DNA from: Planctomycetaceae bacterium
Lineage (GTDB): Bacteria; Planctomycetota; Planctomycetia; Pirellulales; Pirellulaceae
DNA: 43,295 bases
NCBI GenBank assembly: GCA_002724245.1
Contig: PBOG01000144.1
Location: forward strand, 1-43,295
Direction of reading: 5' to 3'
Shown: in pieces, positions 5,210 to 7,435 of the stretch
Layout of the letters: every line of letters starts with the position of its first letter
Numbering within the stretch: the first letter of the stretch is position 1
Notes under the pieces: generated by a model
The model's database searches: none
What the model was told of the DNA's origin: nothing
The model's input: only the letters and a program-made list of their open reading frames with translations
Position numbers and translations under genes: made by a program

Positions 5210-7435
5210 CTAACGAATCAAGCCCATCCGCCGCAGGTTTGGAACGGGAAAATGAAATGAGCCAATGGCAAACGAGCTGCGCCAGTTGTGCGGCCAGTAG
5301 ATCAGCAAGGCCTTGCCTAGCAACAGCTCACGATCGACAAATTTAGGGCACGCTTCCCAGAGGCGTCCGTCCAGGCTCTCCGGACTGTTGTCTCCCATCG
5401 GGAAAAACTGATCCTGTGCCAACGGAAACATCACTTCGTCACGGGCTCGAAACAGGTGCGTTTCTGACCATTCAGGCGGCCGCGTCAGCAGGAGAGAAAT
5501 CTGTTCGGCATCAAGCACCGGAAAGCCGACACCACGAAAACGATATTCATGTTGTGTGTTCGGAAAAAAAGTCTGATCTTGTGCGACGTAGTAAACATCG
5601 CGCAAAAGCCGTAACTGCTCAAACTGAAGCTGCAGACCATCAGCTCCGACAGCTACCGGTGCGGCATCTCCCGGGTCCTGCTCGCTCCAGCGTGGTTCGA
5701 CCGAATCGCTGCGATGATACACCGCAGGCGCATCAAAACGGACCGGCTTGCCATTGATCCATAACAACAGTTGATTATCCACATTGGCGAACCGCAGGTG
5801 CTGGAAACGACCCGTGGCCAAGGAAATCTCAGCCCGGCAAAACTTCCTCGCATCCTGGTCAGGTGGGTCCCCAAAAGTGCCCTCGCCTTGATCGATCGAA
5901 AGTGTGGCAACCTGTCTGGCAATATCGATATCACAACCGTAGCGGACCCCGCCCTCCACCAGCATCAACTTTAGTGTTCCCGATCCAGTCACCATGACTT
6001 CGCATTCGACGACCAGGTCTCCGACCCAGTGATACCCAGAGTACTTGCGAACGTCAGTAAAAACGGGCCCAAAACCAGACTGGCGAGGAAGGTGCAAATG
6101 ATACGCATTGTACGCATAGAAATCGGAGACTAACGCACCGTAACGTCGCTGCGGCAAGATCCATCGATGCAACAGCTCGACGAGGGGTTCCACGCCGCCC
6201 TCCAAGGGAACCACGCCGTCCCGCAAGGGGATCGGCCGCTGGTCAGCATCAAACATCTTGTAGAGCACAACATTGGGTTCACCAGATGTACTGGCGATGA
6301 TATCAACCAGAAACGGGACTTCTGCGCGTTTGGCTTCCGCGTGCCGGGCCTGGATGGAACGGGGACCGGAATCGACCGCAACCAGAAATCCCTCCTGTTT
6401 GAGACGCCCTGCCAGTGTGCGGGCAAACTCTCCAAGCTCCGGCACCTGATAGCCAACCCTCAGCTGGTCCGCGCGGCGCGGATCCGAGGGATCCTGCTTC
6501 ATGAAATACATGCCCGGAGGGAGTACCGGCTTCTTGCGCCCCAAATAGTGCCAGTCATCGGGTCGCGGCACAAAATGTCGATAGCGAAGCCACTGCTCTT
6601 CTTGCCGCGCATCCAGGGGAGGGATTTTTCCTTCGGCAGAACAGACCTCCAATACATCGGGCCATCCCTTTTCAGGCGACCATGTTTGCCACCGCGCCGG
6701 CCAACCTGCAGCCGCTAATTTCTTATAGCGCGTATCTGTGTCATGGACGACTTGCATCATCGCTTCCACTTTGTGCGCCGGCTTTCGCTGAATCTGCCAA
6801 GGGGCGGAATTAACTTCGGCAGACAGTTCGGCGGGCCGCCCTGACGCAGCAGACGGTACCAAAGGATCCTCGTCAGCGGGTGCCGAAGCAGCGCCGGCAA
6901 ACGGCCTGGTGTACACGTCGCCGTGGCGGATTTTCAGCTCCTCGTTGGGCAAGCCGACAAGCCGTTTGATGTAGTTTTGTTTGGCATTGGCGGGATACTT
7001 GAAAACAAATACATCCCACCGGCTGGGCTCAGCCAGGTCGTAATCGAATTTACTGACCAGAATACGATCGCCATCGAACGACCGATGATTCGGTTCATGC
7101 TCTTTGTCTAGTACCATGCGAAAGCGGCAAACCGGACAGGTCGTCGCCAACACCTCACCACTGCGCCGATCCGCGTTTTCCGCACTGGCGCCCGTCTGGT
7201 ACCAGTAATCACACTCCGAGCATTGCACATCGTTGTGTCGACCAAAGAGCGTGGTGGCCATCGAACCCGTCGGAATCACAAATGCTTCAGCAACAAAGCC
7301 TCGAAACAAGAACGCCAGGACAATCGCCACCACCAGCGATTCAACCGTTTCTCGCGTTCCCGAGTGGGAAGGGAGCTCCGTGGACTCATCCTGGCCACTG
7401 CTGGCCGATGAAATCGGGTATGCTTTTCGACTCAT
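5210..7435 (-). CDS. lepB: Signal peptidase I with large insertions
   Basis: Signal peptidase I cleaves signal peptides from exported proteins at the outer face of the inner membrane. After an N-terminal membrane segment (VESLVVAIVLAFLF) come the nucleophile motif IPTGSMATTL (Ser58), the general-base motif YIKRLVGLPNEEL (Lys157) and, near the C-terminus, the family motif GDNSPESLDGR (about 681). Two additions are unusual. A CSEC...CPVC zinc-ribbon-like segment lies between the catalytic Ser and Lys. An insertion of about 450 residues separates the Lys motif from the last box, and part of it reads like a beta-sandwich (WINGKPVRF, FQHLRFANVDN). From the ATG at 7435 the protein is 741 aa, against roughly 200-350 for typical members. 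Open frame continues to 7591 with another ATG at 7471; 7435 is preferred for its upstream GAAGAG. Confidence 0.88.
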   Translation of the reverse strand: MSRKAYPISSASSGQDESTELPSHSGTRETVESLVVAIVLAFLFRGFVAEAFVIPTGSMATTLFGRHNDVQCSECDYWYQTGASAENADRRSGEVLATTCPVCRFRMVLDKEHEPNHRSFDGDRILVSKFDYDLAEPSRWDVFVFKYPANAKQNYIKRLVGLPNEELKIRHGDVYTRPFAGAASAPADEDPLVPSAASGRPAELSAEVNSAPWQIQRKPAHKVEAMMQVVHDTDTRYKKLAAAGWPARWQTWSPEKGWPDVLEVCSAEGKIPPLDARQEEQWLRYRHFVPRPDDWHYLGRKKPVLPPGMYFMKQDPSDPRRADQLRVGYQVPELGEFARTLAGRLKQEGFLVAVDSGPRSIQARHAEAKRAEVPFLVDIIASTSGEPNVVLYKMFDADQRPIPLRDGVVPLEGGVEPLVELLHRWILPQRRYGALVSDFYAYNAYHLHLPRQSGFGPVFTDVRKYSGYHWVGDLVVECEVMVTGSGTLKLMLVEGGVRYGCDIDIARQVATLSIDQGEGTFGDPPDQDARKFCRAEISLATGRFQHLRFANVDNQLLLWINGKPVRFDAPAVYHRSDSVEPRWSEQDPGDAAPVAVGADGLQLQFEQLRLLRDVYYVAQDQTFFPNTQHEYRFRGVGFPVLDAEQISLLLTRPPEWSETHLFRARDEVMFPLAQDQFFPMGDNSPESLDGRLWEACPKFVDRELLLGKALLIYWPHNWRSSFAIGSFHFPVPNLRRMGLIR

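Follow-up and report, generated by a model that had tools for sequence, protein, structure and literature searches.

A planctomycete type I signal peptidase with a lectin-like beta-sandwich and, in one genus, a predicted anticodon-binding-type domain in the place of domain II

The stretch of DNA analysed here (the window: 43,295 nucleotides of a Planctomycetaceae bacterium, GenBank assembly GCA_002724245.1, contig PBOG01000144.1) carries on its minus strand a gene whose product is, by motifs, family profiles and predicted fold, a genuine type I signal peptidase with a domain II enlarged by two different domains. The first, a lectin-like beta-sandwich cap, is ordinary for planctomycetes, and the second, an anticodon-binding-type module by profile and predicted fold, is limited to a single genus. 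We favour, with a probability of about 0.7, a reading in which the protein is an active signal peptidase that cleaves as LepB does, and in which the enlarged cap with its genus-added module acts as a docking surface. The features of the gene, in window coordinates and in the order of the protein, are the following:

5210..7435, minus strand: type I signal peptidase (S26) gene, 741 aa plus stop, recognised by profiles and fold
7292..7360, minus strand: single N-terminal helix, residues 26–48, a likely membrane anchor (predicted helix, hydrophobic by reading)
7262..7264, minus strand: catalytic Ser58 in IPTGSM, invariant in 40/40 aligned rows
7127..7222, minus strand: zinc-ribbon-like loop C72-x2-C75 ... 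C100-x2-C103, from the cysteine pattern in aligned rows
6965..6967, minus strand: catalytic Lys157 in YIKR, invariant in 40/40 aligned rows
6536..6799, minus strand: first part of domain II, residues 213–300 (RKP...VHD...P.RW...WLRYRH), shared by homologues across the order
6140..6529, minus strand: nested anticodon-binding-type domain, residues 303–432, from PF03129 and the predicted fold
5576..6139, minus strand: galectin/CBM66-like beta-sandwich, residues 433–620, from the predicted model and fold search
5363..5395, minus strand: box E, GDNSPESLDGR, residues 681–691, with G681, D682, N683, S687, D689 and R691 invariant in 40/40 aligned rows

Across 5210–7435 the plus strand is broken by 11 stops. 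On the minus strand the ATG at 7435 opens the frame of 741 residues, and an upstream ATG would lengthen it by 52 residues to 793. The start at 7435 corresponds to the matching Met in two same-genus homologues, the starts of which were picked by hand at that residue, and all three proteins begin with MSR-. The full-length protein is also found in two other genomes of the genus, and dN/dS against genome G002 is 0.05–0.25 for all nine segments measured (synonymous changes against the more distant G001 being near saturation). Structure prediction from an input of 40 aligned homologues gives good confidence over the entire length of the protein (mean pLDDT 80.8, pTM 0.82). The preliminary description of this DNA had considered that the gene might prove to be a misassembled fusion with a frame not conserved in relatives; the frame is conserved at 81% and 69% identity, and both misassembly and a chance frame are ruled out by the whole protein in two more genomes of the genus together with the dN/dS values. 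The same description had delimited a real frame without naming its strand.

Whole-protein scans of Pfam and NCBIfam return the S26 families, namely PF10502 (E 6.3e-27, 95 bits, cut-off 22.9) and TIGR02227 (86.8 bits, cut-off 47), and a weak PF03129 match, and nothing else. The predicted fold superimposes on E. coli LepB (1t7d_B) with a Z of 13.2 and an rmsd of 3.5 over 182 aligned residues at 31% identity, and a sequence search of the PDB recovers E. coli LepB in three collinear pieces that align the IPTGSM motif, the YIKR box and the GDN box, only the middle piece, with the Lys box, being strong by itself. The invariant catalytic and box E residues were read from an alignment, A1, of 40 rows that represent 38 genomes (counting that of the window), in which G025 and G037 have two rows each and from which the partial frames L040 (G005) and L059 (G024) were left out; they stand exactly where the preliminary description had placed Ser58, Lys157 and GDNSPESLDGR. 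Its identification of the gene as a signal peptidase is therefore correct, given the family profiles, the LepB fold and the invariant motifs. By analogy with the LepB family, from which the topology is taken, the protein would be active in signal-peptide cleavage and its catalytic domain would lie outside the membrane.

The first departure from the E. coli enzyme lies between Ser and Lys, in the segment CSEC...CPVC that had been called zinc-ribbon-like from the window alone. Alignment of the long homologues, proposed at the time as a check, places the cysteines as described (C72, C75, C100 and C103) and finds all four in 37 of 40 proteins, none in three and a partial set in none. Such an all-or-none distribution is easier to reconcile with one metal site than with cysteines unrelated to each other, and the loop may be seen as a zinc-ribbon-like candidate metal site. 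Matches to zinc-ribbon families of Pfam are weak and occur in some relatives (best listed E 0.022). A second set comprised 30 class-level loci, 29 of them readable, and partly overlaps A1 (at least three loci repeat A1 proteins); by a simple pattern, two CxxC occur in 23 of the 29 and none in six, from which it follows that the putative metal site is dispensable and the loop not essential. Two of the three Cys-free rows of A1 are sisters and the third belongs to another family, so that two losses of the cysteines are likely on the tree: two changes are needed, one of them forced by strongly supported branches (the counts of tree labels left out 34 rows of no group). Two further observations concern this loop. 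At L055 and L057 (genomes G020 and G022), long copies that have lost the full set of four cysteines have a nearby short paralogue that keeps two CxxC. At L132, L134, L136 and L145, from distant members of the phylum, four to six CxxC lie between Ser and Lys, which suggests two or three tandem zinc-ribbon-like knuckles.

The second and larger departure is the insertion that separates the Lys box from box E. It occupies the position of domain II in LepB, the exact boundaries of which in the E. coli protein we take to be as commonly drawn. The Ser/Lys dyad, the boxes, the core fold and the place of the insert are held in common with E. coli LepB, whereas the present protein has 523 residues from Lys157 to box E, with lectin-like and anticodon-binding-type domains, besides the zinc-ribbon-like loop and, in the model, one N-terminal helix. 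The insert had been presented as one huge feature with beta-sandwich-like stretches. Its length is real and the stretches are borne out by modelling, but it is not a single unit: the fold search that had been recommended resolves it into a galectin/CBM66-like sandwich and an anticodon-binding-type domain.

Modelled alone, residues 433–620 form a beta-sandwich (pLDDT 85.5, pTM 0.83). The nearest fold is that of the GRIFIN galectin 5nlh (Z 11.2, rmsd 2.9, 122 aligned), with inulinase, levanase and galactocerebrosidase domains and CBM66 (Z 9.8) close behind, and Foldseek likewise returns galectin-11 (3.6e-5) and CBM66 (5.6e-5). With neighbours such as galectins, CBM66, levanases and galactocerebrosidase lectin domains, the enlarged cap might be read as a sugar-binding lectin for an envelope or exopolysaccharide glycan, which either positions the peptidase or recognises glycan-linked substrates. 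We consider this unlikely, since the fold is a very common one and, although it is shared with galectins and CBM66 at a Z of about 10–11 in the predicted model, identity is 4–15% in the best 50 rows and no Pfam lectin family is matched: the segment finds no Pfam family at E up to 5, and a profile search of the PDB sequences, again at E up to 5, turns up no lectin. Lectin folds often occur without sugar binding. The one PDB sequence match to the beta-sandwich, a transcription factor at E 0.87, was dropped. Separately, PA14 and GLEYA profiles weakly match 4 of the 40 homologues (best E 0.0055 and 0.0019, respectively).

The beta-sandwich is far from peculiar to this gene. Its profile matches at least 145 of 244 genomes across the phylum, a lower bound because scoring was limited to 13 candidates per genome (all genomes being at least 90% complete): 40/40 in the same class and at least 105/204 in other classes, many of them weakly. 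The context of a signal peptidase gene was checked in 20 distant and 30 class-level loci only. In the 20 distant ones, hand-picked from the phylum profile matches at one per genome, box E is in frame with the beta-sandwich hit in every case, a Ser-Met pattern lies upstream in 16 (one doubtful), and CxxC occurs in 6 of the 11 that are readable. With matches in all sampled genomes of the class and in many others of the phylum, the beta-sandwich part is a form that domain II takes in planctomycetes and no peculiarity of a single gene, and an insert unique to this gene is ruled out by its being common across the order and widespread in the phylum. The preliminary description had taken the insert as unusual in length unless most LepB proteins proved to have a similar one. 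Within the group they do, since the distance from Lys to box E is 320–493 residues in the 37 same-order rows without the nested piece (493–523 in the three same-genus rows). Across the wider family they do not, and many S26 frames of about 180–300 aa are found among the matches listed for other phylum members.

The same picture emerges within the genome itself. A count of lepB copies, also suggested beforehand, yields three S26 matches that amount to two genes, both with the beta-sandwich insert: the window gene and a gene on contig 139, a frame of 474 residues with the Ser-Met motif, Lys and two CxxC. By that S26 family search no plain LepB of 200–350 residues was found in the genome, which is 98.8% complete. 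Short paralogue frames of the order are divided in this respect: when all 25 were compared with the beta-sandwich profile (17 of them are in the tree), 13 had a single-domain E of 1e-3 or better and 12 fell short of it. Two paralogues may be recorded in passing: a very diverged S26 copy at L077:1342-3006 (G020), which has Ser at the Lys position (SRLIGMP), in which no CxxC was found and which is possibly inactive; and two long signal peptidase copies in tandem at L073:1537-6480 (G037), with a short paralogue just upstream.

The really unusual piece of the insert had been overlooked. Residues 303–432, nested between the first part of domain II and the beta-sandwich, are modelled with the pattern beta-alpha-beta-alpha-beta and are predicted to have the anticodon-binding fold of class II aminoacyl-tRNA synthetases. 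The predicted domain matches HisRS 1h4v with a Z of 13.8 and an rmsd of 1.6 over 94 aligned residues, and ThrRS with a Z of about 12; among the best 50 fold rows for the protein, 39 belong to tRNA synthetases (HisRS, ThrRS, GlyRS or one further such enzyme). PF03129 (HGTP_anticodon) reaches 24.2 bits on the window domain alone and 24.3 in a six-frame search, above its cut-off of 21, and falls below that cut-off in the whole protein (20.3) and in the two relatives (20.4 and 15.6); an NCBIfam scan of the nested domain gave no match. A PDB search match to DcuS at residues 339–398 (E 0.78) was dropped.

By sequence, the nearest relatives of the nested domain appear to be the C-termini of planctomycete ThrRS. 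A profile of the domain scores 13.7–28.2 bits on eight ThrRS frames, the C-termini of which can be aligned with the three nested sequences over their length (L111, from this genome, and L120, a hit of the search in the family, being confirmed as thrS by NCBIfam and the other six by alignment). HisRS and ProRS were set aside as nearest relative: the own-genome frame taken as HisRS, an assignment made without a family scan, scores 2.3 bits, and the ProRS frame is not among the matches listed. As seven of the eight ThrRS frames had been picked by the same similarity, a profile scan of 296 genomes of the order is the fairer test. Among the matches listed, it recovers the nested domain in the window's signal peptidase but neither of the other two genomes of the genus. 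Of the 100 other hits listed, 92 are in frames 557–827 aa long, mostly in the stretch that the profile covers in confirmed ThrRS; hits were judged ThrRS-like by frame length, and eight fall in shorter or longer frames. A 41-residue frame at G000:C21:30441-30554 also matches PF03129 (31.9 bits); it may be the remnant of a synthetase gene that is broken or frameshifted, or an artefact of assembly.

Among the signal peptidases examined, the nested domain is seen in one genus only. The segment 297–432 is 125–136 residues long in the three same-genus rows and 11–39 in the other 37; PF03129 is detected at E up to 1 in 3 of the 40 aligned proteins, namely the same three, and these form one clade with 100/100 support. 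The nearest row to them in the tree (89/85, a fork that is not strong) has only 15 residues in the segment. Other long planctomycete LepB proteins, for example L038 of G003, share the loop, the first part of domain II, the beta-sandwich and box E, but L038 has 15 residues where the window protein has 136. In 199 genomes of the family, strong matches to the nested domain are confined to the three that belong to the genus, and the next six hits (E 0.001–0.002, 22–26% identity) lie in frames of 677–792 residues.

The similarity to ThrRS C-termini might in principle betray part of an aminoacyl-tRNA synthetase gene that was joined on by a chance fusion or by an error of assembly. This is extremely improbable, for the domain has an identical position in each of the three genomes found for the genus, which are separate assemblies, the best ThrRS-like hits of the family are only 22–27% identical to it, and it is under purifying selection. 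That selection is apparent from a dN/dS of about 0.19 against G002, where the N-terminal catalytic part has 0.05 and the beta-sandwich 0.15. The domain is constrained while changing faster than its folded neighbours; with 70% of its residues shared with one relative and 50% with the other, it is the fastest-changing piece apart from the loose linker 177–212.

Such rapid change is also what one would expect of an insertion that is tolerated and little used, and both inserts might be structural ballast, domain II varying freely and the nested domain being carried without a task of its own. Insert length does vary much among relatives, and domain II is described in PMC4049620 as variable in size and without conserved motifs. 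Against ballast stand nine columns of the beta-sandwich that are invariant over the 40 homologues, a profile widespread in the phylum, and, for the nested domain, the constraint noted above on a well-predicted compact fold; we regard this explanation as possible and on balance improbable.

If the nested domain is retained for a purpose, that purpose is unlikely to be tRNA binding. The predicted fold is that of the ThrRS C-terminal domain (PF03129) and the sequence match is weak, but there is no synthetase core here, and of 32 columns invariant in the eight ThrRS frames six are kept in all three nested sequences, seven in some and 19 in none, the lost sites including the RDR stretch and a glycine that follows strand three. 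This loss of most invariant positions, and a presumed place outside the cytoplasm, which also sets the domain apart from ThrRS, both speak against binding. We take TolB to be a periplasmic precedent for the anticodon-binding fold; a literature search found no such precedent.

These patterns may be assembled into the docking reading preferred above as follows. One N-terminal helix would anchor the enzyme in the membrane with Ser58 and Lys157 on its outer face, where signal peptides would be cut as by LepB. The domain II cap would be the lectin-like beta-sandwich of many planctomycetes, accompanied by a zinc-ribbon-like hairpin between Ser and Lys, and on the branch to the genus a second module with the anticodon-binding fold would have been added into it. 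Having lost most of the ThrRS-invariant residues, the nested domain would no longer bind tRNA and would form, together with the beta-sandwich, a surface for docking, by which the enzyme is kept close to proteins in translocation, to partners in the envelope or to glycan. For the nested domain, a role in docking or recognition is the most probable, and recognition of a substrate or the cell surface by the insert, as the preliminary description had proposed, is possible. In a bolder variant, which we hold to be very doubtful, the exported module would sense a ligand (RNA, a nucleotide or a specific peptide) and thereby gate or direct signal-peptide cleavage.

Most work regards signal peptidase I as simple housekeeping, and we know of no agreed task for its domain II. 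In the planctomycetes, a phylum with an unusual cell envelope, many members have a lectin-like module in the place of this domain, and one genus adds to it a fold of the translation machinery. A literature search on signal peptidase with planctomycetes, anticodon-binding domain, zinc ribbon or lectin/domain II found no such protein in titles and the openings of abstracts, most subscription journals being outside its scope. Were the sensor variant true, this would be a signal peptidase with its own sensor domain. The natural series of plain enzymes, those with the beta-sandwich, and those with the beta-sandwich and an anticodon-type domain offers a way to ask what the task of domain II is.
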